A stretch of DNA of 64,000 bases from Magnetococcales bacterium (GCA_011089965.1 JAANAU010000011.1:1-64000); one strand, 5' to 3'. Shown: positions 26,615-47,681, counted from the stretch's first letter. A program made the numbers and translations. The notes: generated by a model not told the origin, from the sequence alone.

Positions 26615-26934
26615 GATCCCGGGTGTCCGGGTGGATGGTGGCCGTCATGGTGGCGATGGTGCCGACAGCGGTCATGGCCGGGGATCCGTTTGTCGGCAAG
26701 GAGCTGTACAGGCAGCAGTGCGGCCAGTGTCATGGTCTGGATGGTCGTCCGGGTCTGCCCCAGACCCCGGACTTCACCCGCAAGAGCGATCCGCGCAACG
26801 GGCTGTTGCGTACCGATACGGTGCTGGTGAACCGGATTCGTCAGGGCGGGGTGAGTTGTCCTTCCTTTCGTGGAGTTTTGGATGATCTCCAGATCCTCGA
26901 TGTGATTTCCTATTTGAGAAGCATGAGACGATGA
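26611..26934 (+). CDS. monoheme c-type cytochrome with Cys at the usual Met-ligand position
   Basis: Periplasmic cytochrome c of 107 residues. A signal peptide is cleaved near VMA, and the heme site CGQCH is at 37-41. The fold is class I (ELYRQQCGQCHG at the N-terminus, YLRSMRR at the end). The place where class I cytochromes normally show a Met-Pro ligand reads GGVSCPSF (Cys83), so axial ligation may be His/Cys or incomplete. Overlapping ATGA junctions on both sides tie it to the Sel1 and propeller genes. Confidence 0.8.
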   Translation: MRSRVSGWMVAVMVAMVPTAVMAGDPFVGKELYRQQCGQCHGLDGRPGLPQTPDFTRKSDPRNGLLRTDTVLVNRIRQGGVSCPSFRGVLDDLQILDVISYLRSMRR

Positions 26935-28127
26935 GAAATTTAACGCTGCTGTGTCTGCTGTCCGGTCTGCTGTGGGGTTGTTCCCCTTCTGGCGACGGGG
27001 ATCAGGAGAAGAAGAAGGCCCAGGAGAATAAGGTGGAGCAGAAGATCGCTCCGGCTGCTCCGGCTGCTCCGGTTGCTCCGGCGGCTCCGGCGGCCACCGC
27101 GTCGGCTTCCGGTGTGGAAGTCGCCTCTCTGCCGGTGATCCTGGAATCCTATGATGTGGGGCAGAATGTCTATGTCCGTTCCCTCATGGTGGAAAAGGAG
27201 AAGAACCGTCTGTGGGTCGGCACCTCGGTCGGGGTGATGGAGATCGATCTGGAAAAGGGGGCGGTGGTCAACACCTTCACCCGCAAAGAGGGGTTGGCCA
27301 ACGAATATGTCTTTGCCATCGGTCTGGACCGGAACGGGGCCAAGTGGTTCGGGACCAACTCCGGTGGTGCCAGCCGTTACCAGAACGGGGAGTGGAAAAC
27401 CTGGTTCCCCATGCATGGTCTGGCCGATTATTGGGTCTACTCCTTTGCGCAACATCCGGATGGGGGGCTGTGGATCGGCACCTGGGCCGGGGTGAACCGG
27501 CTGGATCTCGACACGGGCCGCATGGATACCTTTGTCAAGGAGCTGGTCAACGAATGGGTCTATGCCATGGTGGTGGACGGGCAGAAACGGATCTGGTTCG
27601 GGACCGAAGGGGGGATCACCCGCCTGGATGGCCAGGAGTGGCGCTCCTGGACCCATGCCGACGGATTGGGGGCCGAGAATGTGGATGAGCTGCCCCTGAG
27701 TACCAATACCGGTCTGGGCACGCGCAATCGACACGATCTGGGTGTATTGTCCGGGGGAATGTCCACGTACAACCCCAATTATGTTTTTTCCCTGGCCCTG
27801 GAGAAGGATGGGGCGCTCTGGGCTGGAACCTGGGGGGGTGGGGTGAGCCGGTTCGATGGTCAGAACTGGCGCAGCTTTGCCCGCAAGGAGGGGCTGCCCG
27901 GCAATATCGTCTATGGATTGACCTTTGACCGGCAGGAACGGTTGTGGGCCGGAACCAGCAATGGATTGGGCTATTACCAGCAGGGCAAATGGCAGGCTCT
28001 GCCGGAGAATCATCGTCTGCTGGGTGCCCACGTTTATGCCCTGGCCGTCTCTCCTGCGGATGAGCTGTGGGCTGGCACGCGCGGCAAGGTGTATCGGATC
28101 GGATTGACCAACAAGGTAAAGGAGTAG
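26931..28127 (+). CDS. lipoprotein beta-propeller (two-component-regulator-propeller type)
   Basis: Lipoprotein of 398 residues; the leader ends in GLLWGC. A Lys/Glu and Ala/Pro linker (about 20-65) precedes a seven-bladed propeller with repeated RLWVGTSVGV, GLWIGTWAGV, RIWFGTEGGI and ALWAGTWGGG strands. This is the Reg_prop signature, usually found in the periplasmic half of hybrid sensor kinases. No kinase or membrane domain follows here, so it is a stand-alone propeller. The paralogue at 28132-29472 has an insertion at the same blade (after residue 240), which argues for tandem duplication. Probably a protein-binding or sensory partner; exact job unknown. Confidence 0.75.
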   Translation: MRNLTLLCLLSGLLWGCSPSGDGDQEKKKAQENKVEQKIAPAAPAAPVAPAAPAATASASGVEVASLPVILESYDVGQNVYVRSLMVEKEKNRLWVGTSVGVMEIDLEKGAVVNTFTRKEGLANEYVFAIGLDRNGAKWFGTNSGGASRYQNGEWKTWFPMHGLADYWVYSFAQHPDGGLWIGTWAGVNRLDLDTGRMDTFVKELVNEWVYAMVVDGQKRIWFGTEGGITRLDGQEWRSWTHADGLGAENVDELPLSTNTGLGTRNRHDLGVLSGGMSTYNPNYVFSLALEKDGALWAGTWGGGVSRFDGQNWRSFARKEGLPGNIVYGLTFDRQERLWAGTSNGLGYYQQGKWQALPENHRLLGAHVYALAVSPADELWAGTRGKVYRIGLTNKVKE

Positions 28128-28131
28128 AGTC

Positions 28132-29472
28132 GTGCAAGGCTTCGGACGGAATATGCTGCTGGCAGCAGGTGTGTTGGCGCTGGTGGCGGGTGCGTACATG
28201 GTGGGGCGTCAACAGGGCGGAACAGTGAATCCCAATTCCGGGAATCCGGCCACGGTCGCAGCGGTTGAGGTGGCTTCCCCTCCGAAGAGTCCGGCACCTG
28301 CGCCCGCGACTGCGCCGGCGGAGACCAAATCCCCGGCCCCCTTGCGGAGTGGAGGGTTGTCGGAACCTCTGGCCGGACGGGATGCCCGGCAACTGTTGCA
28401 AACCGCCCCATCGGCTGCGGCTGGGGGTGCCAAGGGGCGTTTCACCCATTTCCGCGTGGGCAATCGCAACGTCAAGGCCATGCACGCCAGCGGCAATCAG
28501 GTGTGGGTCGGGACATCGAGCGGCGTGATCCGTTACGAGGTGGACAAGGACGATTACAAGCTGTTCGATGTCCGCAACGGCAGTCTGGTGGCCAACGGCG
28601 TGTTTCATGTCGGAAAGTTGGGGGAGAAGATCAGTGTCGGAACCTATGGGGGGGGGCTGTCCCTGTATGATCCGGCCACGGAGAAATGGGAGACCTTCAA
28701 CATTCCCCAGGGATTGGCCGATGCCTTTGTCTATGGGGTGTTGCAGGCCAAAAACGGGGATGTCTGGATTGCCACCTGGTCCGGGGCCAATCGGATCGTG
28801 GGCGGGAATCTCAAGGATCGGGCCAGTTGGCGCACCTATACGGTGGAGAATACCCAGGGCGGTCTGCCCAATGACTGGGTGTACGGCCTGGCCGAAGGGT
28901 TGAACGGGGACATCTGGATGGCCACCGAAGGGGGAGTGGCCCTGTTCCGGGAGGAGAAGTGGCAGCACTGGACTCACAAGGATGGGGTCGGCGCCCCGTA
29001 CGACAAGGTGAAGTCGCAAAACGAGTTTGACAGCGATCCGGGTCAGGTGTCGAGCCATCATGCCCGGCAGAAGCAGGAGCAGGGGTTGAGCGAGGTGACC
29101 ACGGCGTACAATCCCAATTATATCATCTCATTGGCTGTCGATGCCAAGGGCGGGGTGTGGTGTGGCACCTGGGGTGCGGGTCTGTCCCACTTTGATGGCA
29201 AGAGCTGGATCAATCAGACCAGGGATGATGGCCTGCCGGCCAATCATGTCTTCATGTTGCATCTGGATGATCGGCAGAGGTTGTGGGTGGGAACCAGCGG
29301 CGGATTGGCCTTGCGGGATGATGCGGGCAAGTTCAGCGTGAAGACCACTGCCGACGGATTGTTTTCCAACAATGTCTTTTCCATGGCCTTCTCTGCGGAT
29401 GGTTCCCAATGGGTGGGGAGTTATGGGGGGGTGGCCCGGATCTTTCCGGAAAAGACGGACCAAAAGCCGTAA
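28132..29472 (+). CDS. membrane-anchored beta-propeller paralogue
   Basis: Protein of 446 residues. GTG 28132 is the start, with AAAGGAG seven bases upstream. A single N-terminal helix (about 6-24) anchors it. An Ala/Pro-rich linker (50-90) leads to the same propeller type as the preceding lipoprotein (VWVGTSSGVIRYEV, DVWIATWSGANRI, GVWCGTWGAGL, RLWVGTSGGL). A longer blade insertion with many Gln/Ser residues lies at about 295-325. The pair may bridge inner and outer membranes, one by helix and one by lipid; this is inference from topology. Confidence 0.72.
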   Translation: MQGFGRNMLLAAGVLALVAGAYMVGRQQGGTVNPNSGNPATVAAVEVASPPKSPAPAPATAPAETKSPAPLRSGGLSEPLAGRDARQLLQTAPSAAAGGAKGRFTHFRVGNRNVKAMHASGNQVWVGTSSGVIRYEVDKDDYKLFDVRNGSLVANGVFHVGKLGEKISVGTYGGGLSLYDPATEKWETFNIPQGLADAFVYGVLQAKNGDVWIATWSGANRIVGGNLKDRASWRTYTVENTQGGLPNDWVYGLAEGLNGDIWMATEGGVALFREEKWQHWTHKDGVGAPYDKVKSQNEFDSDPGQVSSHHARQKQEQGLSEVTTAYNPNYIISLAVDAKGGVWCGTWGAGLSHFDGKSWINQTRDDGLPANHVFMLHLDDRQRLWVGTSGGLALRDDAGKFSVKTTADGLFSNNVFSMAFSADGSQWVGSYGGVARIFPEKTDQKP

Positions 29473-29537: not shown

Positions 29538-29714
29538 GGGGAGGAGGTTTTTCCAATAATTGAGAATAATGGCCGGGTGCGATTTCCAATTTTGAAAAGA
29601 GTGCGGCTGGTTTGAGAACCTGTTTGGACCAGGATTTGTGTATCGAAATGCTAATGTTTTTATAAGTATTTGTTTTTATTATATTTTTTTATTGGTTTAG
29701 AGATGCGGATGAAT

Positions 29715-29730
29715 TGGCATTCCGGCTGCA
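29715..29730 (+). promoter_or_regulatory. sigma-54-type promoter candidate
   Basis: TGGCATTCCGGCTGCA matches the -24/-12 pattern: GG and GC are separated by exactly ten bases, the TGGCA element is complete and the second element reads TGCA. It lies 78 bases before the ATG of the tetraheme cytochrome gene. An NtrC-type activator is encoded 4 kb upstream. The match is by eye against the consensus; chance occurrence cannot be excluded. Confidence 0.5.
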
Positions 29731-29807
29731 CTATAGGATATCAAGGCCAACGGGTCGGGTTGAACCAAGCGCAACAACACATCCATCAGGAATCGGGATA
29801 TCAAGCC

Positions 29808-30638
29808 ATGAACGCCACTTTCACATCGGGATTTTCGTTTTCCAAACTGTCCATGGCCTTCGGGGTTGCCGCGCTTGGACTGCTGTTGGGCACCAGTGTT
29901 GCGGATGCCGGCATCAAGGGGAGCAAGCATGACCTGGGAGCCAGCGGTACCTCCCAGCATGGGACTACCGGCAACACCAACACGACGGAAGTGTGCGTCT
30001 TCTGCCATACCCCGCACGGTGCCAATACGGGTGCGGCAGCTCCGTTGTGGAACAAGAGTTTGCCCGCTGCCGGCAGCTATACCCGCTACTCGTCGTTGAA
30101 CTCCAGCACCATCGATGGTGCAGAGCTGGCCGTGGGTTCGGTCTCTCTGGCCTGTCTCTCCTGTCATGACGGCAGCCAGGCCATGGACGTGATGATCAAC
30201 AAGCCGGGTAGCGGTGGTTACACGGCAGGCGGCGCGGCCTTCCAGGCGAACGCTGCCATGACCGGCACCCCGCTTCCGAATCTGGGAGTGGACATCTCCA
30301 ACGATCACCCGATCAGCATTCAGTACGGTGGTGGCGGTTGGGTCGGTGGGGACACGGATGGTACGGCAGCCGCAGGTGATCTGGCGGATGGCAGCTTCAA
30401 GGCCGGTGTGAAGGATACCATCAATACCAATCCGGTGTGGTGGATCGATACCGGAAACGCTGGCGTGCGTGACAAGACCGATATCATCCTCTACACCCGT
30501 ACGAATGGCGCGACCAAAGAACCCTTCGTGGAGTGCGCAAGCTGCCATGACCCGCACAACGCGACAGCCCAACCTGTCTCCTTCATGCGGATCAGCAACG
30601 CGGCCAGTGCAGTCTGTCTGGCCTGTCACGACAAATAA
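29808..30638 (+). CDS. tetraheme c-type cytochrome, doubled-CxxCH type
   Basis: Periplasmic or secreted cytochrome of 276 residues with a signal peptide (cleavage near VADA) and four CxxCH sites: CVFCH, CLSCH, CASCH, CLACH. The opening block KHDLG...EVCVFCHTPHGA...PLWNKSL, the middle block LACLSCHDG and the DHPI segment are also present in the 11-heme cytochrome at 39296-41806. It is therefore a small paralogue of that protein's N-terminal part. ATG 29808 was chosen because the signal peptide begins soon after; no strong ribosome binding site is visible. Likely a secreted or periplasmic relay in the conduit. Confidence 0.82.
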   Translation: MNATFTSGFSFSKLSMAFGVAALGLLLGTSVADAGIKGSKHDLGASGTSQHGTTGNTNTTEVCVFCHTPHGANTGAAAPLWNKSLPAAGSYTRYSSLNSSTIDGAELAVGSVSLACLSCHDGSQAMDVMINKPGSGGYTAGGAAFQANAAMTGTPLPNLGVDISNDHPISIQYGGGGWVGGDTDGTAAAGDLADGSFKAGVKDTINTNPVWWIDTGNAGVRDKTDIILYTRTNGATKEPFVECASCHDPHNATAQPVSFMRISNAASAVCLACHDK

Positions 30639-30764: not shown

Positions 30765-30854
30765 TGATTTTTGGGGCGACCCTGTTCAATCTGTTGTCGG
30801 GGCCGGTATGCGGCTGAACATCATCGTTTCGTGTTGGATCCGGGTGTGGCAAAA

Positions 30855-31916
30855 ATGAGAAACCGTTGCTTTATCCTGTTGTTGGTGGCATCTGTCATGG
30901 GTCTGGCATCCCCTCTTGGGGCAGCGGAACCGGTTGGGAGTGGGGCGGCAGGTCAGGGAGAGCGACCCCCTTTTGCCACGGTGGACGGGGTGGCGATCCC
31001 GGCAGAACAGTTCATCAAGGCGGTCCAGGAAGGGATGCGTCAGAAGTATTACCACGGCAAGATTCCCGATCCTGAGATGGCCAAATTCCAGCGGGAGATG
31101 GGCAATGCCCTGGTGGATCGCATCCTGTTCGTGAAAGAGGCCAAAAAACAGGGCCTCCAACCCGACCAGTCCCAGATCCAGCAGCGCATCACCGAGATGG
31201 ACCAACGCTATGGCAATTCGCCCCGCTATCAGAACAATCGCGAGGCCATGCTCGGACCCATGGTGGAAGAGCTGGCGGATCGCAGTCTGGTGAATCAGCT
31301 CAAAGAGAAGATCACCAAGGTCAAAGAGCCATCCGCGGCGGAATTGACGGCCTATTACAAAGCCAATCCGGATACGTTTACCGAACCCGAAGATCTGGAT
31401 GTCTCATTGATCCTGTTGAAGGTGGCACCGAACGCGGGTGTGGAAGCGTGGGATCAGGCCAAGGGCGAGGCTGAACAGATCTTCGGAAAGCTCAAGGGTG
31501 GGGCCGATTTTGCCGAAATGGCCCGTATCCACTCTGGCGATCCGTCGGCGGCCAAAGGGGGACGGATGGACTATCTGCACTCCGGCATGCTGGCCCAGGA
31601 GGCGGAAAAGGCCCTCTCCCTCATCAAACCGGGTGAGATCACGCCTGTGATCCTGGTGCTGGAGGGGTATGCCATCTTCCGTCTCGACAAGCGCACCCCG
31701 CCTCGCAAATTGACCTTCGAGGAGGCGCGCGACCGGGCGAAGAAATTGTATGTGCGAGATGCCTCTGACACGCAATGGAAACAGTTCCGCAAGAAATTGT
31801 GGGACAAGGCCTCGGTCAAGATCAACGAGTCCTACTATCTGCCTCTGACCGAATCCGGAAAAGAGGCAAGCGGAACTCCGCATCCTCATGCGCTGGGAGG
31901 TGGCAAAGCCAAGTGA
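30855..31916 (+). CDS. PpiC/SurA-type periplasmic peptidyl-prolyl isomerase
   Basis: Periplasmic foldase of 353 residues. It has a signal peptide (cleavage near LGAA), a SurA-like N-terminal helical region (AVQEGMRQKYYHG, ALVDRILFVKEAKKQG) and a PpiC rotamase domain at about 190-290 (VSLILLKVAP; ADFAEMARIHSGDPSAAKGG; GEITPVI). It lies 10 bases before the beta-barrel gene. The likely role is to chaperone that barrel or the many cytochromes of the cluster to the outer membrane. The start ATG has the first good signal sequence. Confidence 0.85.
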   Translation: MRNRCFILLLVASVMGLASPLGAAEPVGSGAAGQGERPPFATVDGVAIPAEQFIKAVQEGMRQKYYHGKIPDPEMAKFQREMGNALVDRILFVKEAKKQGLQPDQSQIQQRITEMDQRYGNSPRYQNNREAMLGPMVEELADRSLVNQLKEKITKVKEPSAAELTAYYKANPDTFTEPEDLDVSLILLKVAPNAGVEAWDQAKGEAEQIFGKLKGGADFAEMARIHSGDPSAAKGGRMDYLHSGMLAQEAEKALSLIKPGEITPVILVLEGYAIFRLDKRTPPRKLTFEEARDRAKKLYVRDASDTQWKQFRKKLWDKASVKINESYYLPLTESGKEASGTPHPHALGGGKAK

Positions 31917-31926
31917 ATGATGCCCG

Positions 31927-34083
31927 GTGAAGAATACGACTCGACCCGTCTGCACGCTTTTGATGGTTCCTTTGCTGCTCACCCCGGCACCTGTGTCGGT
32001 CATGGCACAGGAAGAAGAGTCCTCTTTGCCGTTTTGGGATCCGGCACGATATGGCGTGCATGGACGTTATACCCCCTGGACCTTGTCCGGAGATGTGGGT
32101 TTGCGTCTGTCGTATAACCTGGAAGAGCACAAAAGTACGGCTCTGCGGCAGAGACAGCATCAATGGTATACCCAGTTGCGGGCTGGCAAGGGGGCGGAAG
32201 GGTATGTCATCGAGCCGTATATTGCCCAGTGGCGCGGCGACATCCTGATGGGATTGACCCTCAGCCAGACCATTTCAACCAATCGGAACACGCAGGATGA
32301 TCAGAACGGCGGCAGCAGCAGCACCAGTGAGGAGCGCAAGGTGAATCTGTCGGCTCAATCCCTTCAGGGCAATGCGGATGTACGCCTGTTTCCGCAGAGT
32401 GGTTTTCCGTTTCAGTTCTATTTCAACCGTGCCAATTCCGGGAATTCCGGGGGCAACAGCGAGGCGAGCAGCCGTTTGTCCCAGAGGTTCGGGATCACGC
32501 AACAGTATCGGGACCGGGAGGCGGAGTTGAGCGTGCGGTTGCAGGCCGAGCGCCGCCTGGATGACACCGGGGACAAGGCCAACTCCGGTCTGCTGCCCAT
32601 GGTGCTGCCCAGCATCCGGGATATCGAAGACTCCAAGACCATGGATACGGCCACCCTGCGGATTGACAAGCGTCTGGATGATCACAGCCTGGAACTGATG
32701 GCCCGTCTGGCCCAACAGGATGGCAGAACCAGAATCGGGAAAGGGTTGACCTGGGAACGCAGCGTGGTGTTGTCCCACAATGTCGCCCCCATGGAAGAGT
32801 TGTCGATCAGCAATCAGGTCAATGTCACCCGCTCCCGGGATTTTCAGCGCAATATGGACGAAGAGGCCCGGGGGATTTATCGTGAGACCGATGCGTTTCA
32901 ACTCTCTCAAATGCGTCAGTTCACCTCCAACGCCTTCTGGCGCACCAGCGAATCCCCTCTGCTGCTCAATGCCACCTTCCGGGTCTATCAGGAGGATCTC
33001 AATAACGCCATCCTCAACAACGCCACCCAACTGTCGCCCAGCCTGGTGACCGCCCTGGGGGGGGCGCGTCCGGGCAGCGTACCAACGGGCACGACCGATC
33101 CTTCCGGCCTGCCGTTCACCCCCGCGACCACGGGTGCCACCACCACGACCGGGAGCAGCGGCAACCGCCGTGCGTTGTCGGTCAATGCCCGTCTGGGTGC
33201 CGGTTACCGGTTTGACGAGCACCACAATGTGAATGGTGCCCTGGTGGCCATTCAGGAGACCCGGGAGACCGTCACCGAGGAGGAGACGATTGAATCGGTG
33301 GTGAACAGTTTCGGGCAGTCGGCTGCCTATCAGTACGACTCCGGGCCGATCCCTCTGGAGCCTTACAACTACTCATGGTTTTCCGGCACCACGGTGGCCA
33401 ATACCATCAGTTCGGATCTGGGGACGCAACCGGAATTGGGTGAACGGATCGGACATGGTGTGGAGCGCATCTTTCCTCTGGAGGCGCTGGAGGCCGAAAT
33501 CCGGCTGTCGGTGGACGAATCTGCCGGAATGCGCTACAAAGCGGATCCGGAGATGGATCTGACCCACACCGTTGGACTGGGGTACGAGAGTTCTGCGGAA
33601 GGGGAGCGTGCGCTGATCGATCTGCGCCTGACCGACTCCCATACCCTGACCGATCCTAAGGATGAGACCCAACTGGTCAACCTGCAACTGATGCGCAACG
33701 CCTCTTCCGAAGGGGGGGCAGACGGTTGGTCCGGGAGTCTGGCGTTCAACTGGATGCGTCGGATGGATCAGAGCGGTCTGTTGACCATCTCCGAATCGGC
33801 CAGCGGCAGTTTGAATTATACCATACCCCAGTTCATGGATGTCTCCCGGCTTCGATATGACATGATCACCACCATCAGCGGGGACTCCTGGGCCATGGGC
33901 ATGCTCGGCCCTTCGGAGCAGGAGATCAGTTGGCGCAATCTGTTGAGTTACAATATCGGCAAGATCCATCTGCGGATGGGTGGCGAGTTGAAATATCTCC
34001 ATGACAAAATGGGAGAGAAGAGTTATCAGGCTTTGTTGACGTTCGATGTGGTTCGCAATTTCTACAGGAGATTTGAACAATGA
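31927..34083 (+). CDS. outer-membrane beta-barrel protein (porin of a putative porin-cytochrome conduit)
   Basis: Protein of 718 residues starting at GTG 31927, with a signal peptide ending near VMAQ. From residue 45 onward it shows alternating hydrophobic/polar strands separated by acidic or Gly/Ser/Asn loops, for example LSGDVGLRLSYNL, MGLTLSQTIS, ATLRIDKRLDD, VNGALVAIQET and MGGELKYLHDK. No plug, OmpA or TonB box is seen. The size suits a barrel of 20 or more strands, comparable to MtrB-type or Geobacter Omb-type conduits, but no specific family motif was recognised. The last residue is Gln, not the usual Phe. Foldase gene upstream, cytochrome genes coupled downstream (4-base overlap). Cytochrome sheath function is inferred from context. 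Confidence 0.7.
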   Translation: MKNTTRPVCTLLMVPLLLTPAPVSVMAQEEESSLPFWDPARYGVHGRYTPWTLSGDVGLRLSYNLEEHKSTALRQRQHQWYTQLRAGKGAEGYVIEPYIAQWRGDILMGLTLSQTISTNRNTQDDQNGGSSSTSEERKVNLSAQSLQGNADVRLFPQSGFPFQFYFNRANSGNSGGNSEASSRLSQRFGITQQYRDREAELSVRLQAERRLDDTGDKANSGLLPMVLPSIRDIEDSKTMDTATLRIDKRLDDHSLELMARLAQQDGRTRIGKGLTWERSVVLSHNVAPMEELSISNQVNVTRSRDFQRNMDEEARGIYRETDAFQLSQMRQFTSNAFWRTSESPLLLNATFRVYQEDLNNAILNNATQLSPSLVTALGGARPGSVPTGTTDPSGLPFTPATTGATTTTGSSGNRRALSVNARLGAGYRFDEHHNVNGALVAIQETRETVTEEETIESVVNSFGQSAAYQYDSGPIPLEPYNYSWFSGTTVANTISSDLGTQPELGERIGHGVERIFPLEALEAEIRLSVDESAGMRYKADPEMDLTHTVGLGYESSAEGERALIDLRLTDSHTLTDPKDETQLVNLQLMRNASSEGGADGWSGSLAFNWMRRMDQSGLLTISESASGSLNYTIPQFMDVSRLRYDMITTISGDSWAMGMLGPSEQEISWRNLLSYNIGKIHLRMGGELKYLHDKMGEKSYQALLTFDVVRNFYRRFEQ

Positions 34084-34496
34084 CAAGAAAGTTTCTGGGG
34101 GGCGTGCCGGCATCCAGGAGTCCCATGCGACTGTTGCGTCTGGTATTTCTGGTGTTTCTGGCGGTGATCGTGTGGGGCAGTGAGGCGATGGCCGAATACG
34201 GCGATATCGTCATCAACAACTATTCGGACAAGGCTGGCATGCGTCCGGCGATCTTCCCGCACTGGTTTCATCGTATCCGGTTTCGTTGCAAGGTATGTCA
34301 TGCGGATTTGGGCTTCAAGTTCAAGGCGGGCGGCAATGACATCAACATGCTCAAGATCATCGATGGTCAGTTCTGCGGCGGATGTCACAATGGTGAGGTG
34401 GCCTGGTCGGTGGAGAACTGTGACATCTGTCACTCCGGCAAGCCCAACACCCCGACCCAGGTCCATGGCAACACCATCCAGAAACTGGTGAAATGA
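34080..34496 (+). CDS. triheme c-type cytochrome (family A)
   Basis: Periplasmic cytochrome of 138 residues with a long basic signal sequence cleaved near AMA and three hemes: CKVCH, CGGCH, CDICH. Extra His residues (PHWFHRIRF) could be axial ligands. It is nearly colinear with the cytochrome at 37793-38200 (family A'): GMRP-I-PHWFHRIRFRCKVCH, INMLK--DGQ-CG-CHN and VAW. Resembles c7-type triheme domains of metal-reducing bacteria. Coupled by ATGA to the beta-barrel gene, so it is a likely periplasmic donor or plug for the barrel. Confidence 0.85.
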   Translation: MTRKFLGGVPASRSPMRLLRLVFLVFLAVIVWGSEAMAEYGDIVINNYSDKAGMRPAIFPHWFHRIRFRCKVCHADLGFKFKAGGNDINMLKIIDGQFCGGCHNGEVAWSVENCDICHSGKPNTPTQVHGNTIQKLVK

Positions 34497-34519
34497 CGCT
34501 TTTGAAAGGAGTGTGGTCC

Positions 34520-35239
34520 ATGAAACGTCTCTCCCTGATCGCCCTGGCCCTGCTGGTTGCCGTGTTGGGTGCGGGCATCTTTGTGGATGCCTCTGCGCAG
34601 CAGCAGGCACCAGCCAAGGCTGCGGATGCCAAACCGGCGGACAAACCGGCGGACAAACCGGCAGCCAAACCCGCCGATGCCAAACCTGCCGACCCCGCAC
34701 CAGCCAAACCTGCGGCAGCGGCCAATCCGTTCAACCGTTTGATGATTCCCAAGGCAGATCGCAATCCTCCGCCCATCAAGGACGGCATTCACGATCCGGA
34801 ATCCCCGGGAACCCCCATGTTGCAGCCCCCCCTGGATGCGTTCGGCGGCATGCCCAAGAGCAATGCGGGCAACAACATCAACTGGGTGCAGGCCATCAAG
34901 GACAAGACCATCAATCCCCGCTATGATCGCCTGAATCCCAAAGAGGAGCCGATGATCCTGGATCTGGACATCGTGCGCGAGGTGAAAGGGTTCATGCCGG
35001 ATGTGGTCTATCCCCATGACCGCCATACCGAATGGCTGGACTGCTCCAACTGCCATCCGGACATCTTCATTCCGCAAAAGGGTCAGAACACCATCTCCAT
35101 GGCCCAGATCCTGATGGGTCAGAAGTGCGGGGTGTGTCATGGCAAGGTGGCGTTCCCGGTTTCGGAGTGTCGTCTGTGCCATTCCAAGAAGAAGGATCAG
35201 CCCAAGGCGGCCTCGGTGTCGGCACCGGCGGCCAAGTGA
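34520..35239 (+). CDS. triheme c-type cytochrome (family B) with Lys/Pro/Ala repeat linker
   Basis: Protein of 239 residues. ATG 34520 follows AAAGGAG at eight bases, so it is preferred to the ATG at 34493. A signal sequence (cleavage near DASA) is followed by an Ala/Lys/Pro/Asp repeat linker (ADKPADKPAAKPADAKP, about 30-70). The C-terminal domain carries CSNCH, CGVCH and CRLCH within the family-B frame TEWLDCSNCH...KCGVCHGKVAF. The linker could span peptidoglycan or tether it to a partner. Paralogues: 21609-22148 and 37216-37824. Confidence 0.85.
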   Translation: MKRLSLIALALLVAVLGAGIFVDASAQQQAPAKAADAKPADKPADKPAAKPADAKPADPAPAKPAAAANPFNRLMIPKADRNPPPIKDGIHDPESPGTPMLQPPLDAFGGMPKSNAGNNINWVQAIKDKTINPRYDRLNPKEEPMILDLDIVREVKGFMPDVVYPHDRHTEWLDCSNCHPDIFIPQKGQNTISMAQILMGQKCGVCHGKVAFPVSECRLCHSKKKDQPKAASVSAPAAK

Positions 35240-35270
35240 CCGGCACATGTTTTCTCAAGGAGTGGTGACT

Positions 35271-36152
35271 GTGGTGCGAGGCGCGTTGATCATCGGTCTG
35301 GGAGTGGGTGGCTGGATGTTGGCCTCTGGTGAGGCCCTGGCCAACCACCCCCTGTTTGAACAGAAGTCGCGACTGCTGGATCGCTTCCTGGTCCAGTCCG
35401 CCACCAGCGAGCAGGTGGGGCTGAGAGGGGATGCCAAACTCAAAGAGATCCTCGATCAGACCCGCCGTTTGCGGGAAGAGGCGCGACGCCTGCACGATCA
35501 GGGGGAGATCGAGAAGGCCACGGCCCAGGTGGATCTGGCCATCAAGGAGGCGGTCAAACTCTCCCAACTCACCTCGGGTCCGGCCAAGCAGGCGTGGAAT
35601 CAGCGCATGCGTTTCGAGGGGTTGCAGGCCGGAGTGATCACGTTTGAAGAGGCGTATGTGCGCAATCTTCAGACCCTCTCTGCCGAAGGGGGTGGTGCGG
35701 GTGCCAAGCCGCCCCCGCAGCCGGTCAAACCGGAAGAGATCCGGCAGGTTCTGGCCAAGGCAGCGGCCTTGGCCGGCAAGGAGGAGTATGCGCAGGCCAA
35801 CGAACTGTTGGCCGACATGCAGCAGAAGCTGACATCGGCTTTGAAGGCCATGCTCGACTCCAAGACCCTGGTTTATCAGCTCAAGTTCGAGACTCCCCAG
35901 CATGAATACCGGTATGAACTGGACCGGATGCTGAGTTTCGAGGCATTGTTGAACATGGCCTTGTCCAAGGCTGCAATCGATGAGAATGGACGGCGTATCA
36001 TCCGGGAGCGGCAGGAGAAGAGCCGCGCATTGCATCGCGAGGCGGAAAAGCAGGCGGCTGCCGGAGACTTCAAGGAGGCGATTCGCACCATGGAGAACGC
36101 CAATGAACAGTTAAGCCAGGCCATGATGATGGCAGGCATCGTCTTCCCCTGA
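35271..36152 (+). CDS. exported helical protein of unknown function (H)
   Basis: Periplasmic protein of 293 residues. GTG 35271 is preferred because AAGGAG lies eight bases upstream; an ATG at 35247 is also in frame. A signal peptide is cleaved near ALA. The mature protein is almost entirely helical (LREEARRLHDQGEIEKATAQ, AAALAGKEEYAQANELL, AEKQAAAGDFKEAIRTMENA), with a central block VYQLKFETPQHEYRYELDRM. There is no heme or metal motif. The next gene encodes a paralogue. Family not recognised; TPR-like bundles in a cytochrome operon suggest a scaffold. Confidence 0.7.
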   Translation: MVRGALIIGLGVGGWMLASGEALANHPLFEQKSRLLDRFLVQSATSEQVGLRGDAKLKEILDQTRRLREEARRLHDQGEIEKATAQVDLAIKEAVKLSQLTSGPAKQAWNQRMRFEGLQAGVITFEEAYVRNLQTLSAEGGGAGAKPPPQPVKPEEIRQVLAKAAALAGKEEYAQANELLADMQQKLTSALKAMLDSKTLVYQLKFETPQHEYRYELDRMLSFEALLNMALSKAAIDENGRRIIRERQEKSRALHREAEKQAAAGDFKEAIRTMENANEQLSQAMMMAGIVFP

Positions 36153-36166
36153 TCAAGAGGTGCGAG

Positions 36167-37105
36167 ATGACCAGATTGAGTCGGATGTTGATGGCAGCGT
36201 TCGTGGTGACGGGCGCGTTCGGGATCTCCTGGGAGTCGATGGCGGCCCCGGAAGAGGGGGCACCACCCGCAGGTTCATCGGCCATCAATAAAAGTACCGA
36301 TCCCAAGGTTTCCCGATGGGGTACGGACCGGGAGCAGGTGAAGCGGCGTTGGGATACGGTCAACACCCTGGTCGAGGTTTCCTCCGGGGCCAAGAAGGTG
36401 GCATCCAGTGGTCGCCCGGAAGCAATGGCTTTGCGTGAGCAGGCCCGCTCCTTGCGCGATGAGGCCAAGGGATTGCTTGAGCGGGGGGAGTTGCAACCCG
36501 CTTCGGACAAGTTGAGCCAGGCCACCCAGAAGATGTTTGCCGCCATCAAGGAGGCTGATGCGGGCGAGTCCAAACGGGGCAAGCAGGAGCAGGATTTCAA
36601 CCGCCGTCTGGAGAGCGTGCGGGTGTTGACCGATGCCCTGGACCGGATCGGCAAGGAGAAATCCTCCTCCAAGGCCGCCGAGTCGAGCAAACAGGTCAAG
36701 AGTCTGATGAGTCAGGCCCAAGGCATGCAGGCCAAAGGGGATGCGGCCTGGGCCAAAACCACCCTGGACAAGGCCTATGTGACGGCCAAGACCGGGATCG
36801 AGCTGTTGCGGCGCGGGGATACGCTGGTCCGCACCCTCAAGTTCAACTCCAAGGAAGAGGAGTATCACTATGAGGTGGATCGCAACGACACCCATCAGAT
36901 GCTGATCGGCATGCTGCTCAAGGATAACGACAAGGGGTCGGATCCGCGCATCAAGGAGTTTGTCTCCAAGGCGGCGGAGCTGCGGCGTCAGGCCGATCAG
37001 ATGGGGCGCAATGGCCAGTATGAAGAGGCGATCCGGGTGCTGGAGCAGGCGACCACCGAGTTGATCCGGGCCATTCGCAGCGCCGGGATTTTCATTCCGG
37101 GTTGA
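36167..37105 (+). CDS. exported helical protein of unknown function (H', paralogue of the preceding gene)
   Basis: Protein of 312 residues with a signal peptide cleaved near SMAA. It shares with the preceding protein the order of helical segments, the central VRTLKFNSKEEEYHYEVDRN block and the closing REAG-type helix ending in SAGIFIPG (GIVFP in the neighbour). A GAGGTGCGAG leader precedes the ATG. The pair lies at the centre of the mirrored cytochrome arrangement. Unknown function; possibly a dimeric scaffold in the periplasm. Confidence 0.7.
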   Translation: MTRLSRMLMAAFVVTGAFGISWESMAAPEEGAPPAGSSAINKSTDPKVSRWGTDREQVKRRWDTVNTLVEVSSGAKKVASSGRPEAMALREQARSLRDEAKGLLERGELQPASDKLSQATQKMFAAIKEADAGESKRGKQEQDFNRRLESVRVLTDALDRIGKEKSSSKAAESSKQVKSLMSQAQGMQAKGDAAWAKTTLDKAYVTAKTGIELLRRGDTLVRTLKFNSKEEEYHYEVDRNDTHQMLIGMLLKDNDKGSDPRIKEFVSKAAELRRQADQMGRNGQYEEAIRVLEQATTELIRAIRSAGIFIPG

Positions 37106-37115
37106 TGATGTATGC

Positions 37116-37177
37116 AACCATCAGGGGGGTATCCCCCTGGTGGGGCTTGGGGCGAGAGCCACCCAAGAAAAATCAAA
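37116..37177 (-). repeat. degenerate fragment of the dispersed hairpin repeat (inverted)
   Basis: After the stop at 37105 the sequence ATGCAACCATCAGGGGGGTA and its continuation matches the reverse complement of the right end of the dispersed repeat, with a deletion. A second hairpin (CTTGGG and CCCAAG, 37146-37167) replaces the usual CCAGGGG stem. It occupies the 110-base gap before the next cytochrome gene. Confidence 0.45.
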
Positions 37178-37215
37178 AAAAGACATTCCAAACGGGTTGC
37201 GGTTGAAGAGGCAAG

Positions 37216-37824
37216 ATGGTCAATACGAATCGCGCCTGGTGGCGCCTGCTGTTGTTGTTTTGTGCCGTCATGCTGGCCGCTGCGGCGGTGGAAGCTGGGG
37301 ACAAGAGGGCCTGGAAGCCCCTCGAAAAGGATTTTTTGCACGATCCTCAAGGCACCTCGATTCAGGATTTGCAAAATCCGGGTGAGGCCATGTCGAGCCT
37401 GCCGGCAGATGGTGCAGGCAATCTGGTGGACTGGGTGCGCGCTTTGCGGGAGGGCTATATTCAACCGCGTACCAACGTTTTTCCGGAGACCAAGGTCAAT
37501 GTGTTGGATCTGGACCTGATCTATGGCAACACCGGGGATCAGCCGTTTGTGCGCTTTCCCCACAAGCCCCACACCGAGTGGCTGGATTGCATCAACTGTC
37601 ATGACGAGATCTTCAAGACCCAGTTCAACGGGTCGGGCATCAAGATGTCCCTGATTCTCGAAGGCAAGTTCTGCGGTCAATGCCATGGGGCCGTGGCCTT
37701 TCCCTTGACCGAGTGCAAACGGTGCCACAGCGTGGCCCCGGAGAGTTTCAAGGGCAAATTCGGTGCGCAACAACCTTTGCCGGTGACACAGAATGCCGCA
37801 CCTGCCAACAACAAAAAGAAATAA
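37216..37824 (+). CDS. triheme c-type cytochrome (family B')
   Basis: Periplasmic cytochrome of 202 residues with a signal peptide ending near VEA and hemes CINCH, CGQCH, CKRCH. The N-terminal half (KPLEKDFLHDP, NLVDWVRALREGYIQPRTNV) matches the stand-alone family-B protein at 21609-22148 more closely than the protein at 34520-35239. The heme half keeps HTEWLDCINCH and GQCHGAVAFPLTECKRCH. A Gln/Pro/Asn/Lys tail ends in NNKKK. The downstream gene starts inside its 3' end (32-base overlap). Confidence 0.85.
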   Translation: MVNTNRAWWRLLLLFCAVMLAAAAVEAGDKRAWKPLEKDFLHDPQGTSIQDLQNPGEAMSSLPADGAGNLVDWVRALREGYIQPRTNVFPETKVNVLDLDLIYGNTGDQPFVRFPHKPHTEWLDCINCHDEIFKTQFNGSGIKMSLILEGKFCGQCHGAVAFPLTECKRCHSVAPESFKGKFGAQQPLPVTQNAAPANNKKK

Positions 37825-38200
37825 TTCGCGCGTGTGGCGGTTGGGGTTGGGGCTGCTTGTGGCGTGTGCCGTGGTGGAGCCGGTGTGGGCCGAGTATGCG
37901 GATGTGGTGCTCAACCGGCTTTCTGAAGCCAATGGCATGCGTCCGGTGATCTATCCCCACTGGTTTCATCGCATCCGTTTTCGTTGCAAGGTGTGTCACT
38001 CCGAACTCGGGTTCAAGATGCGGGTTGGCAGCAATGAGATCAACATGCTGAAACTGATGGATGGCCAGTATTGTGGCCGCTGTCACAACAATGATGTGGC
38101 CTGGGGTTTGGACAACTGTCACCGTTGCCATTCCGGTCGCAAGGGGATGGAAACTGGCATCCGGGGAGGACACAAGGCAGGTGGGCCGGGTTACTGGTAA
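37793..38200 (+). CDS. triheme c-type cytochrome (family A')
   Basis: Cytochrome of 135 residues with a signal peptide cleaved near VWA and hemes CKVCH, CGRCH, CHRCH. It aligns along its length with the family-A protein at 34080-34496, including IYPHWFHRIRFRCKVCH, INMLKLMDGQYCG and VAWGLDNCHRCHSG. The ATG at 37793 overlaps the preceding gene; the start is supported by the basic leader. It closes the mirrored A-B-H-H'-B'-A' order. The 3' end overlaps the NHL lipoprotein gene by 20 bases. Confidence 0.85.
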   Translation: MPHLPTTKRNNSRVWRLGLGLLVACAVVEPVWAEYADVVLNRLSEANGMRPVIYPHWFHRIRFRCKVCHSELGFKMRVGSNEINMLKLMDGQYCGRCHNNDVAWGLDNCHRCHSGRKGMETGIRGGHKAGGPGYW

Positions 38201-39299
38201 AGGTTTTGACCGGGTGGTTTTTGGCCCGGGGAGCGGTGTGCTGCTGGTGCTGTTGGCCTGGCTGGCCGGGTGTGCGCCGATCCAGCACGAGATGATCCTG
38301 GGCACGGAACGTCTCAAACCTGAACAACGACCGGTCTGGCCCTCGTTGCCGGAGACCCCCCGCTATGAGTATCTGGGTCAACTGCTTGGGGTGCGCAATT
38401 TCCGCATCTCCGGGGATGAGAGCCTCCGCACGACCCGCAGTGCCTTGTATTGGCTGGCGGGCATCGATGACGAAACCGGATTCGAGCCGGAACGCAATCT
38501 CGATCTGCAACGACCGGTCTCGGGATGTGTGGACCGGGAGGGGCGCATCCTGGTCAGCGACATGGGCCATGCGGCGCTGTTCGTCTTCAATCCCCGTACC
38601 GGGGAGTTTGACATCTGGCGTCAGGCCATGGCTGGACAGCCGTTCCTGGCCCCGGTGGGCGTGACCGAAGGGGGACGCGGGGAATACTTTGTGGCCGACC
38701 CGGAGTTGCGCCTGGTGGTCAGGCTGGACGCTGCGGGTCAACCTGCGGGGGTGATCGGACGGGGTGAGCTGGAACGCCCGACCGGTGTGGCCTGGAATCC
38801 GGAACAGCGGCTGCTGTATGTGGCAGACAGTGCATTGGATCAGGTCAAGGTGTTTGACCGGGATGGGGTGTTGCGTCACACCATCGGCAAGCCTGGGGAT
38901 CAGGATGGGGAGTTCAACACCCCGACCCACGTGGCGTATGCCCGCAACCAGCTGGTGGTGGCCGATACCCTCAATGCCCGCATCCAGATTTTTGATGCCG
39001 AAGGCCGTTTTGTGCGCACCCTGGGCAAACGGGGCAACCTGATCGGGGATCTGGCCCGCCCCAAAGGGGTGGCGGTGGATGGGGAGGGCAATCTGTATGT
39101 GGTGGAATCGTTCCATGATCATCTGTTGATTTTCAACCGGGAGGGCCAGTTCCTCATGCCCATCGGTGGTACGGGTCAGGGGTTGGGAGAGTTTTATCTG
39201 CCCAATGGGGTGTGGGTCGATCTGGCAGGACGGGTGTTTGTGGCCGACATGTTCAACGGGCGGGTGATCATTCTCCAGTTTCTGGGAGGTGACGGATGA
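38181..39299 (+). CDS. NHL-repeat lipoprotein
   Basis: Lipoprotein of 372 residues. GTG 38181 (GGAGGA ten bases upstream) gives a leader ending in LLAWLAGC. Six NHL blades follow (ILVSDMGHAALFVFNPRTG, LLYVADSALDQVKVFDRDG, LVVADTLNARIQIFDAEGRF, LYVVESFHDHLLIFNREGQF, VFVADMFNGRVIILQF). NHL propellers bind partners on their top face and often neighbour multiheme cytochromes. Paralogous in layout to the lipoprotein at 47682-48929. Coupled by ATGA to the 11-heme cytochrome, its probable partner at the outer membrane. Confidence 0.8.
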   Translation: MGRVTGKGFDRVVFGPGSGVLLVLLAWLAGCAPIQHEMILGTERLKPEQRPVWPSLPETPRYEYLGQLLGVRNFRISGDESLRTTRSALYWLAGIDDETGFEPERNLDLQRPVSGCVDREGRILVSDMGHAALFVFNPRTGEFDIWRQAMAGQPFLAPVGVTEGGRGEYFVADPELRLVVRLDAAGQPAGVIGRGELERPTGVAWNPEQRLLYVADSALDQVKVFDRDGVLRHTIGKPGDQDGEFNTPTHVAYARNQLVVADTLNARIQIFDAEGRFVRTLGKRGNLIGDLARPKGVAVDGEGNLYVVESFHDHLLIFNREGQFLMPIGGTGQGLGEFYLPNGVWVDLAGRVFVADMFNGRVIILQFLGGDG

Positions 39300-41806
39300 C
39301 GGGTCGCGCGGGTCGCATGCTGGTTCTGGTGGTGCTGTTGGTCATGGGGTTGGTGTCGGCAGCTTTGGCAGCGCGCACGTCGGATGTGCGTCGCACCAAA
39401 CACAATCTCTCCAATACCGATTATTCGGGTGGGCCGACCCGCACGGTCAAGGCGAGCAGCGAAAACCAGGTGTGCGTGTTTTGTCACACCCCCCATGGTG
39501 CCACCCAGAGTGCCGGTGTGCCCTCGCCACTGTGGAACCGTCAGTTGTCCACCTCCAGTTACACCACTTACGAATCGACCTCCATCGATGCCGACATCTC
39601 CCAGTTGCGTCAGGGACCGGGGGGAACCTCCAAACTCTGTCTCTCCTGTCACGACGGGACATTGGCCATTGGTTCGGTGAATGTCCTGAACGGCCAGCAA
39701 TCGGGTTCGATCACCATGACCGGTACGGCCAGTGGCAAGATGCCGGCAGGAGAGGGGAGCGATACCGGTTTCACCCGCAATCTGGGCACCAACCTCTCCA
39801 ACGACCATCCGATCTCTTTCACCTTTGATACCAATCTCGCCACAGCGGACGGTGAACTGCGTCATCCCCCCTATACCAGTGGCGGCACCCTGATCACCGG
39901 GCAGCGTCAGGCTGGCGTCACCCCCAAGCCGGTGCTGCCCCTGGATGACCAGAAGGTGCAGTGCGCCTCCTGTCACGACCCCCACATCCGGGATGCCTCC
40001 GAAACCACCAGCATCAAGTTCCTGCGTTTGAACCGGTTCCAGAAGGCCAATCCCAGCGGTCAGAATTTCAGCTCCACTGATGACATCATCTGTCTGGGTT
40101 GTCACAACAAGGGGGTGCATGCCTGGGCCACCTCGGCCCACGCCAACTCCACCGATGCTTCGGAAACCTATAAATCCGGTACGGGCAGCGCGGCGGAAAA
40201 ACGGGAGTTTCCCAGCAATGTCACGGTCTGGGAGGCGGCCTGTCTCAATTGTCATGACACCCACACGGTTCCCGGCGCGCGTCGGCTGTTGCGCGAGGGC
40301 ACGGACAGCGCCCTCTCCCCCAAACGCACCGGCAATCCGGCATTGGAAGAGACCTGCTACCAGTGTCACTCTTCCAGTACGGAGACCATTCTCAACAGTA
40401 CCGGCAACAGTGCCCCGGATATCAAGACCGATTTCACCACCACGGGCAACAAGCACATGCCCATCAAATCCTCGGAGCAGCCTGCGGGTCAGGAGGTTCA
40501 CAACATCGGTGCCCGGCTCTCCTCCAATCTCCTGACCAACTGGTCCGGAGTTCCGACCCATGCCGGCGCCCATTTTGTGGAAGATCCGTTGCTTCTTGGC
40601 AAAGGCAATCTGACCAACCGGCATGTGGAGTGTACCGACTGCCACAATCCCCACCGGGTGATGAAAAATTCCAAATATGACGGTTCCGGGGTCTCCACCC
40701 AGGCCACCCATACCCACAGCAGCACCACCCAGCACAGCAATGAGGCCTCCGGGGTGTTGCGCGGCATCTCCGGGGTGGAACCGGTTTATGTGGGGGAGAG
40801 TTTTCTCGATCTGCCTTCCTCGTTCAAACTGCTGTGCGGCGATCCCTCCCAATCCACCGACTGCTCCAGCGACGGGCCGGTCACCAAGGAGTATCAGGTC
40901 TGCCTGAAATGCCACTCCAACTACGCCTATAACGACAGCGGCGGTTACAATGATGTGGGGCGTCCGGCCATCACCGGCACCAACGGATTGTCCTTGGGCA
41001 ATTTCAGCGTCGGGGATCGCTATACCAACCAGGCCATGGAGTTTCAGGCCCCGGACAATGCCCAGGGAGAAAAGGGGGTGGATGGCGCCCCGGAGCCGAC
41101 CTTGGTCAACCATCGCTCCTGGCACCCGGTGATGAAGGCCACCGGACGCACCCTGGCCGAACGGGGCGGAGCCAATGCCAGCATCTGGCTCTCCCCCTGG
41201 AACGGCTCTTCCGGCAGCTATATCGGCAATCAGACCATGTATTGCAGCGATTGCCATGGGTCAGCCACGGCCAATGGCACCTCAGTTCCGGATACCGGCA
41301 AGCCGTGGGGTCCGCATGGCTCCAGCAAGGATTTCATTCTCAAGGGGGATTGGGACAATACCACCGGCAGTGGGCAACAGGATGATCTGTGCTTCAAGTG
41401 TCACAGTTATACGATCTATGCCACCAAGAACAGCACCCAGAGCGGTTTCTGCTGCGGCAAGGACACCAATCTCCATGGCTATCATGCCGACAAGATCGGC
41501 AGCATGCGGTGCGGCTGGTGTCATGTGGCCGTTCCTCATGGATGGAAGAACAAGGCGTTTCTGGTCAATCTCAACGACGTGGGACCAGAGGCCAACAAGA
41601 GCGCCGGTACGCATCTGCGCAACAATACCACCACCCCGGTGAACATCGCCCCCTATTATCGTCGGGCAGTGCTCAAGGTGGTCAACTGGAAAAGGAGCGG
41701 TGCCTGGGTGGAGAATGATTGCGGTTCGACCGGAGCGCCAGGCAATGGCCAGACAGGTCTCGACTGGATGAAAAACAACAGCGAGAATTGCGCCGGTGGT
41801 CCGTGA
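39296..41806 (+). CDS. undecaheme c-type cytochrome, probable secreted or outer-surface electron carrier
   Basis: Protein of 836 residues with a signal peptide cleaved near ALA and eleven CxxCH sites: CVFCH, CLSCH, CASCH, CLGCH, CLNCH, CYQCH, CTDCH, CLKCH, CSDCH, CFKCH and CGWCH. The first third parallels the tetraheme protein at 29808 (KHNLS...VCVFCHTPHGA, LCLSCHDG, CASCHDPH). Heme density is low, about one per 76 residues, as in large extracellular cytochromes with beta-rich spacers. It lacks the MtrC/OmcA Greek-key signature as far as I can see, and no lipobox is present. The terminal acceptor or donor side is unknown. It lies between the NHL lipoprotein and the cytochrome c maturation genes. 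Confidence 0.85.
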   Translation: MTGRAGRMLVLVVLLVMGLVSAALAARTSDVRRTKHNLSNTDYSGGPTRTVKASSENQVCVFCHTPHGATQSAGVPSPLWNRQLSTSSYTTYESTSIDADISQLRQGPGGTSKLCLSCHDGTLAIGSVNVLNGQQSGSITMTGTASGKMPAGEGSDTGFTRNLGTNLSNDHPISFTFDTNLATADGELRHPPYTSGGTLITGQRQAGVTPKPVLPLDDQKVQCASCHDPHIRDASETTSIKFLRLNRFQKANPSGQNFSSTDDIICLGCHNKGVHAWATSAHANSTDASETYKSGTGSAAEKREFPSNVTVWEAACLNCHDTHTVPGARRLLREGTDSALSPKRTGNPALEETCYQCHSSSTETILNSTGNSAPDIKTDFTTTGNKHMPIKSSEQPAGQEVHNIGARLSSNLLTNWSGVPTHAGAHFVEDPLLLGKGNLTNRHVECTDCHNPHRVMKNSKYDGSGVSTQATHTHSSTTQHSNEASGVLRGISGVEPVYVGESFLDLPSSFKLLCGDPSQSTDCSSDGPVTKEYQVCLKCHSNYAYNDSGGYNDVGRPAITGTNGLSLGNFSVGDRYTNQAMEFQAPDNAQGEKGVDGAPEPTLVNHRSWHPVMKATGRTLAERGGANASIWLSPWNGSSGSYIGNQTMYCSDCHGSATANGTSVPDTGKPWGPHGSSKDFILKGDWDNTTGSGQQDDLCFKCHSYTIYATKNSTQSGFCCGKDTNLHGYHADKIGSMRCGWCHVAVPHGWKNKAFLVNLNDVGPEANKSAGTHLRNNTTTPVNIAPYYRRAVLKVVNWKRSGAWVENDCGSTGAPGNGQTGLDWMKNNSENCAGGP

Positions 41807-41830
41807 CCGTGGCTGGGGTGTGTGGCTGAG

Positions 41831-42808
41831 ATGAGGTTTGTCGAACGTCTGGCCTCCCTGAAATGGTCGGTGCTGGTGCTGGCATGGCTGGTTCTGGTCT
41901 TGCCTCTGGTGCCAAGGGCGTTGATCTCTCCTCTGGTGGTATTGGGCATCGGTGGCGGGCTGTTTCTGGTCAACCTGCTGGCATTTTTGTGGTGTTCGTC
42001 CTTTTTCCGGACCCGTCCCGGGTTGCTGGTGTTTCATGCAGCTTTGGGGTTGTTTCTGATTCTGGCCGGTGTGGGGCGACTCACCTGGATGGAGGGCAAC
42101 GTCGAGGTGGCGGTTGGTGAGTGGTTCGAGGGGGTGCCGATGACCATGACCCAGGGACCGCTTCATGACGGAGGCATCGGGCAGATCCGTTTTCTCAACG
42201 AAGGGTTCACGATTACCTATGACGTCGGGCTGAAGCGCGGACCCACCCGCAACCGTGTGGCCTGGCGCGATGGCCAGGGGGGCATGGTGCGCGGGGTGAT
42301 CGGGGATGATTACCCTTTGGTGTTGCGGCACTATCGTTTCTATACCACCTCCAATAAAGGATTTGCCCCGATTCTCACCTGGCAGCCGGAGGGTGGTCAG
42401 CCGGTGCGCGCCGCCTTTCATTTGCCAAGCTATCCTTTGTTTGCGGACCAGACCAACACCTGGAGCTTTCCAAATCAGGGACCGACCATCACGGCCACCC
42501 TGGTCCTGAAGGAGCCGGTGCTGGATGAATCCCGTCCCGGGCAGTTTCGTTTGCCGGAGCAGCCCACCCTCAAGCTGGCCGTGCGTGACGGCCCGGAGGC
42601 GCAGATGCAACCCGGTGCGCGCCTGGCATTGCCCAACGGGGGGGTGGTGTTCGAGGGGTTGACCAGCTGGATGGGGTATCGCATCCACTACGACCGCACC
42701 CGCTCCTGGCTGTTGGCCACCCTGCTGGTGGGCGTTGCGGGTCTGGGTTGGCACTATCGCACGCGCTTTCAGGCGCGGGATTGGGATCAGATGGAGAGGG
42801 GTGGATGA
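41831..42808 (+). CDS. ResB/CcsB-like cytochrome c maturation protein
   Basis: Membrane protein of 325 residues, shorter than usual ResB. Three N-terminal helices (about 13-30, 33-55, 62-82) precede a long periplasmic beta-rich domain (VEVAVGEWFEGVPM; LVLRHYRFYTTSN), and one helix closes it (LLATLLVGVAGLGWHY). The overall layout fits the CcsB half of System II, which with CcsA delivers and ligates heme to apocytochromes. ATG 41831 chosen; GTG 41822 is in frame too. ATGA coupling to the CcsA gene. Confidence 0.75.
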   Translation: MRFVERLASLKWSVLVLAWLVLVLPLVPRALISPLVVLGIGGGLFLVNLLAFLWCSSFFRTRPGLLVFHAALGLFLILAGVGRLTWMEGNVEVAVGEWFEGVPMTMTQGPLHDGGIGQIRFLNEGFTITYDVGLKRGPTRNRVAWRDGQGGMVRGVIGDDYPLVLRHYRFYTTSNKGFAPILTWQPEGGQPVRAAFHLPSYPLFADQTNTWSFPNQGPTITATLVLKEPVLDESRPGQFRLPEQPTLKLAVRDGPEAQMQPGARLALPNGGVVFEGLTSWMGYRIHYDRTRSWLLATLLVGVAGLGWHYRTRFQARDWDQMERGG

Positions 42809-47575: not shown

Positions 47576-47615
47576 ACGGGTGCATCTCCAGTTCGGTGAG
47601 CATATTGAACCAATG

Positions 47616-47630
47616 CAGTATGGTATACTG
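47616..47630. promoter_or_regulatory. inverted repeat in divergent intergenic region
   Basis: CAGTAT and ATACTG flank GGT, making a perfect 6-bp dyad between the divergent cytochrome (47575) and NHL lipoprotein (47682) genes. It is suitably placed for an operator serving both. No convincing sigma-70 hexamers were found around it. Confidence 0.3.
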
Positions 47631-47681
47631 TCTGCAATAACCACACCAGAGAAACGATATCGGCATATGGGAGTGATGAGA

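Follow-up and report, generated by a model that had tools for sequence, protein, structure and literature searches.

A gene-family palindrome in a Uet-type cytochrome cluster of a Magnetococcales bacterium probably reflects two conserved gene pairs

Why would six consecutive genes on one strand be ordered as a palindrome of gene families? This question is raised by a stretch of 64,000 nt from a Magnetococcales bacterium (GCA_011089965.1 JAANAU010000011.1:1-64000; the whole of this stretch is referred to as the window), in which six genes at positions 34080-38200 of the plus strand follow each other in the order A-B-H-H'-B'-A'; A, B, B' and A' encode periplasmic triheme c7 cytochromes, and H and H' encode long helical proteins. 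The surrounding tetraheme, peptidyl-prolyl isomerase, barrel, triheme, NHL and 11-heme genes match the published list of Uet genes (undecaheme electron transfer; uetABCDEFGHIJ) of Candidatus Tenderia electrophaga, which are also present in Gallionella (PMC10734462), and the cluster was therefore assigned to Uet. The answer put forward here, to which we assign a probability of about 0.8, is that the mirror consists of two separately conserved pairs placed side by side, namely A-B next to the porin gene and B'-A' next to the NHL-UetJ end, with one or two helical genes between them.

The first-pass annotation of this DNA, which was made from the sequence alone, had described three paralogous families in mirror order on one strand, and the coordinates and pair similarities confirm that this palindrome is genuine. 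Gene A (34080-34496), at the position of UetD, carries three CXXCH motifs and matched the c7-type triheme domain TIGR04257 (E 1.9e-16) and PF14522 (E 5.7e-14), while gene B (34493-35239), at the position of UetE, encodes a triheme c7 cytochrome with an N-terminal extension (TIGR04257, E 2.7e-17). The second pair consists of B' (37216-37824; TIGR04257, E 6.4e-16) followed by A' (37793-38200; E 4.9e-17). Each of the four contains exactly three CXXCH motifs and scored 58.3-62.7 bits against TIGR04257 (E 6e-16 to 3e-17), above the cut-off of 40 bits. Between the pairs lie H (35247-36152), at the position of the tetratricopeptide repeat (TPR) protein UetF, and H' (36167-37105), both predicted to be secreted and all-helical; a signal-peptide-like N-terminal stretch could be read from the sequence of all six genes. 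Furthermore, A overlaps the upstream UetC-like gene by 4 nt and B by 4 nt, and B' overlaps A' by 32 nt. Similarity amounted to 53% over 120 aa for A and A' (E 6e-49), 45% over 139 aa for B and B' (E 9e-43) and 26% over 258 aa for H and H' (E 1e-17), whereas all comparisons of A-type with B-type proteins were far weaker (50-58 bits versus 131-140 bits within families).

Conservation of the mirror among relatives, a check that the first-pass annotation had proposed, was assessed in 52 loci from a scan with A and in additional loci from genome searches, with families assigned by means of hidden Markov models and a tree of the helical proteins. These loci, several of which derive from draft metagenome-assembled genomes (MAGs), are not statistically independent, since inheritance or transfer affects entire operons at once. 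The order A-B...B'-A' was present in 42 loci, among whose A proteins 39 are distinct, distributed over Magnetococcia, beta- and gammaproteobacteria, with none, one, two or three helical genes between the pairs, and the tandem order A-B-A'-B', which was looked for in all relative loci, was found in none. The mirror is thus conserved more strongly than a reader of the single sequence could have known. If three families contribute two genes each to one strand, 90 orders are possible, of which 6 (1 in 15) are palindromic, for which reason a single palindromic locus says little; a chance palindrome was nevertheless ruled out, since the same order recurs in 42 loci. A plasmid search with A gave no match, and in a sample of alphaproteobacteria only 1 of 385 genomes held the family over the cut-off.

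The units of this conservation proved to be the pairs. Across all loci, A preceded B in each of the 95 cases in which the two were adjacent on the same strand, and B' preceded A' in all 52 such cases for that pair. The pairs are also found apart: in Aromatoleum, NHL, ResB and CcsA genes stand between A-B-H' and a B'-A' pair situated approximately 7 kb upstream; in Motiliproteus B'-A' lies approximately 30 kb upstream of A-B; in Kiloniellaceae it is located 16 kb downstream of A-B on the same strand; and in the Parvularculaceae locus L054 it is inverted, occupying the strand opposite to A-B. The internal order of each pair was constant in every separated arrangement. Additionally, 24 Tenderia-type loci contain A-B-H followed by one more B-type triheme gene, and lack both A' and the B'-A' pair.

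When two pairs of opposite internal order adjoin on one strand, the outcome is either A-B-B'-A' or B'-A'-A-B, and each of these is a palindrome. Side-by-side placement of such pairs therefore suffices, and neither additional rearrangements nor selection for symmetry is required. The first-pass annotation had regarded several rearrangements, or else selection for position, as necessary for the mirror, a claim that the findings do not support: the two pairs have a fixed order and can also be separated, inverted or, in the case of the second, missing. Gene content, paralogy, the fixed order within pairs and the separability of the pairs were directly observed; what needs explaining is the opposite internal order of the two pairs. 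Some points weigh against this account. The contiguous arrangement A-B...B'-A' is itself frequent (42 loci), making some selection for both pairs in one operon likely; the counts lose force through their lack of independence, as operons pass on or transfer whole; and we infer the electron flow, the partners and the scaffold role of H and H', a Foldseek search with the H' fold having returned no match at E < 0.001.

The helical genes follow looser order rules than the cytochrome pairs. H and H' formed two deep clades in the tree, each spanning Magnetococcia, beta-, gamma- and alphaproteobacteria, and the single helical gene of the 24 Tenderia-type loci fell in the H clade. Alphaproteobacterial loci read H'-H, many betaproteobacterial loci have only H', the Tenderia type has only H, and locus L208 has neither, reading A-B-B'-A' without any helical gene. 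The six-gene palindrome is thus one among several states. Domain-library searches gave no family match over the cut-off for H. The AlphaFold2 model of H' (mean predicted local distance difference test score, pLDDT, 85.6) comprised ten helices, one of them of 56 residues, and the VIA-align matches, EzrA-like bundles and further helical ones, had Z ~11-12, within the range expected for helical proteins. For the TPR protein of Tenderia (Tel_16525) a scaffold role has been suggested (PMC5371394), and the long all-helical prediction for H' would fit such a role.

Phylogenetic analysis pointed to an old origin of all three pairs. In the rooted tree of c7 domains, A-type and B-type genes were separate (B-type, support 97/98), with clades for A (99/96), B (98/96) and A plus A' (97/87). 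A' appeared as a grade or a clade around A, and approximately unbiased (AU) tests, applied to the c7 domains alone with their few columns, left both arrangements standing. A longer alignment of B-type proteins resolved B (100/100), B' (100/99), the genes at the UetG position (99/98), which were assigned by gene position in Tenderia-type loci and not by Tenderia sequences, and solo B-type genes (94/90), with the branching among these four unsettled. A representative of the solo lineage is present in the window itself, where a third B paralogue (21609-22148, minus strand) lies approximately 12 kb from the six-gene run and groups with the solo gene of another genome (97/84); solo B-type genes resembling it also occur in gammaproteobacteria. 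B' scored 138 bits against this gene and 131 bits against B, and the alignments thus do not single out B and B' as each other's closest relatives, the UetG-position and solo lineages being equally placed; this goes halfway towards one of the outcomes that the first-pass annotation had named as refuting. Judged from these trees, the A/A', B/B' and H/H' splits are ancient; a recent duplication was ruled out, every paralogue being an old clade or grade across several classes. A and A' also differ in detail: a Met residue nine residues before heme 2 was found in A of 97 of 97 relatives, and in A' of 53 of 53 relatives an additional Met precedes heme 2 by 18 residues, which suggests that the second pair is probably no mere copy.

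A sister cluster was identified in four genomes (L174, L178, L180 and L181), where genes for an NHL protein, a tetraheme cytochrome, two trihemes (B* and A*), a barrel-sized protein, a further NHL protein and an 11-heme cytochrome succeed one another. It lacks the peptidyl-prolyl isomerase and H, and its single triheme pair is ordered B-A. This cluster, which appears to be undescribed, occurs in at least two genomes alongside a full Uet cluster. In the trees, A* fell outside A plus A', and B* formed a separate clade; AU tests did not reject A' and A* as one clade and left the place of B* unsettled (p 0.37-0.45). A more distant array of c7 genes was seen in one genus (L182 and L220), whose genomes have 10-11 copies each; some of these encode six-heme proteins with two domains, and the array includes the order A-B-B.

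How the two opposite orders arose may be a matter of history only. The sister cluster suggests B-A as the older arrangement, with the A-B pair beside the porin gene as a re-ordered copy; an ancestral B-A pair would have been kept as B'-A', the other copy would have been re-ordered once, and plain descent and operon transfer would have done the rest. Such a course, which is compatible with and not opposed to the explanation by two pairs, is in our estimation a reasonable but tentative proposal, falling somewhat short of even odds. It agrees with the one B*-A* pair of the sister clusters, followed by porin, NHL and 11-heme cytochrome genes, and with the positions of A* outside A plus A' and of B* as a clade of its own, but the AU tests neither reject an A'-A* clade nor place B*, the distant array reads A-B-B, and a single swap, although the simplest course, is conjectural. 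The mirror could alternatively be a by-product of ordinary tandem duplication, if a triplication (A-B-A-B-A) had been followed by loss of the middle A. While tandem arrays of such genes do exist, as the A-B-B order of L182 and L220 illustrates, and a third B-type lineage is known, the intermediates A-B-A or A-B-A-B were seen in no locus examined, and this origin is considered improbable.

It may also be asked whether the mirror was selected because it builds a pseudo-symmetric, two-sided assembly; the operon would then reflect a complex whose halves A-B-H and H'-B'-A' are put together in the order of translation. Retention of the mirror in 42 loci of three classes, with tandem order in none, and the tight overlaps within pairs would be in keeping with this idea. 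Against it, B'-A' is missing from the 24 Tenderia-type clusters, in Aromatoleum, Motiliproteus, Kiloniellaceae and Parvularculaceae the two pairs are separated by 7-30 kb or occupy opposite strands, and the helical genes read H'-H in alphaproteobacteria instead of H-H' and are reduced to one in many betaproteobacteria; selection of this kind is accordingly regarded as quite improbable. A structural version of the idea would have the four trihemes line up along rods of H and H' as their genes do, in mirror order, to give a pseudo-symmetric periplasmic wire of twelve hemes. Such a wire would correspond, in several chains, to GSU1996, the dodecaheme periplasmic nanowire of Geobacter sulfurreducens (PDB 3ov0), and the paired gene order would aid its assembly; we hold this to be very doubtful. 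The reading by two separately conserved pairs thus remains preferred, and no function of its own is proven for the mirror. A striking palindrome of gene families can evidently come from two conserved pairs, in a machine that needs no symmetry.

The 110-nt gap between H' and B', which separates the two pair modules, contains an 11-bp GC hairpin (37118-37143, plus strand; minimum free energy of the gap -39.1 kcal/mol, z -2.5). As a conserved mRNA element this hairpin was rejected, since stems of at least 8 bp occurred in 24 of 28 gaps compared to 20.3 expected from shuffles (median z -0.7). Similar hairpins were noted in a few relatives, with no excess over shuffled gaps.

The six genes are embedded in a longer run on the plus strand of a genome of 3.66 Mb, whose closest relatives at this locus are Magnetococcales MAGs. 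The run begins with a UetA-like tetraheme cytochrome (29670-30638, likely start near 29808; four CXXCH motifs), which is OmcE-like as judged from matches to PDB 7tfs (E 9.7e-31), which we take, in agreement with papers naming both, to be the OmcE cytochrome filament, and PDB 9yuq (E 5.5e-32). It continues with a UetB-like parvulin peptidyl-prolyl isomerase (30846-31916; Rotamase_2, E 2.7e-16) and a UetC-like outer-membrane beta-barrel (31927-34083), whose AlphaFold2 model (mean pLDDT 84.2) showed 28 long strands, with MtrB (6r2q_B) among its Foldseek matches (E 1.3e-7). Downstream of A' lie an NHL beta-propeller at the UetH/I position (38061-39299; NHL, E 2.3e-16), a probable lipoprotein (LAGC) whose uncertain start is probably near the end of A', and a UetJ-like undecaheme cytochrome (39296-41806; 11 CXXCH motifs), residues 12-232 of which form an OmcE-like N-terminal part (PDB 7tfs, E 6.4e-24) and which keeps 11 hemes in nearly all relative loci. 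ResB- and CcsA-like cytochrome c maturation genes follow (41822-43620; ResB, E 1e-8; Cytochrom_C_asm, E 3.8e-20), and a second NHL protein is encoded outside the cluster run (47454-48929). Upstream of the cluster, two adjoining paralogous two-component-regulator-propeller proteins (26931-29472) were observed; some relatives, in Motiliproteus and other Magnetococcales, likewise have such a pair in front of Uet, and in further relatives this place is taken by a different NHL protein. Within Magnetococcia the distribution of TIGR04257 cytochromes is uneven, with 19 of 48 genomes scoring over the cut-off and with presence and absence inside a single genus. Where they occur, they usually number four or more, as a complete set, suggesting that the cluster is gained or lost as a block.

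By its gene content the system is a Uet-type outer-membrane porin-cytochrome conduit with four periplasmic trihemes instead of three, and electron uptake is its predicted activity. Uet is a proposed bacterial route for electron intake from cathodes or iron minerals. Two His residues shortly before heme 1 and a Met exactly nine residues before heme 2 were present in all 330 of the 330 trihemes examined, and in GSU1996 each c7 domain has one His/Met heme (PMC10138318); from this pattern and the homology to GSU1996, each triheme is expected to carry two bis-His hemes and one His/Met heme. The probable route of the electrons would connect a donor or acceptor outside the cell with UetA, then with UetJ, located inside or close to the UetC barrel, and further, via the periplasmic trihemes, with the inner membrane; H and H' would hold or align the trihemes, and the second pair B'-A' could increase capacity or bring another specificity for redox or docking. 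Two separable triheme modules, the four-triheme form of Magnetococcales and many beta- and gammaproteobacteria, and the one-pair sister cluster together provide a concrete handle on what the second pair contributes.

The Uet systems of Tenderia and Gallionella share with the present cluster the tetraheme UetA, the isomerase UetB and the barrel UetC upstream of the trihemes, the helical UetF between trihemes, the NHL protein and the undecaheme UetJ in matching order. In Tenderia, the undecaheme gene is preceded by two trihemes, the TPR protein and a further triheme, all of which belong to the most highly expressed genes of that organism (PMC5371394). However, three trihemes (UetD, E and G) and one helical protein are found there, compared to four and two here, and Uet as described has two NHL proteins (UetH and UetI), of which one is present in the cluster. 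A and B match UetD and UetE by position, while the third triheme of Tenderia-type loci, at the UetG position, belongs to a separate B-type lineage and is not B'.

MtrCAB/MtoAB and PCC3 likewise combine a large outer-membrane barrel with multiheme cytochromes, and MtrB is among the structural matches of the barrel. No counterpart of the decaheme MtrA (DmsE family) exceeded the cut-off (UetJ, 38 bits against a cut-off of 192 bits), and no 10-heme gene was found in the cluster. The periplasmic and extracellular cytochromes of PCC3 have a median of 21 and 34 hemes (PMC5566968), whereas those described here carry 3, 4 and 11, none having 20 or more, with small trihemes in their stead. GSU1996 is the best match of A among solved structures (E 1.9e-35) and shares the c7 triheme domain with one His/Met heme, but there four such domains are joined in one chain, while here they are four separate small proteins. 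Finally, both UetA and UetJ, the latter in its first 232 residues, resemble the OmcE-type filament and PDB 9yuq, a likeness known from sequence comparison, although UetJ has seven further hemes; the Uet system may feed or include a cytochrome nanowire.

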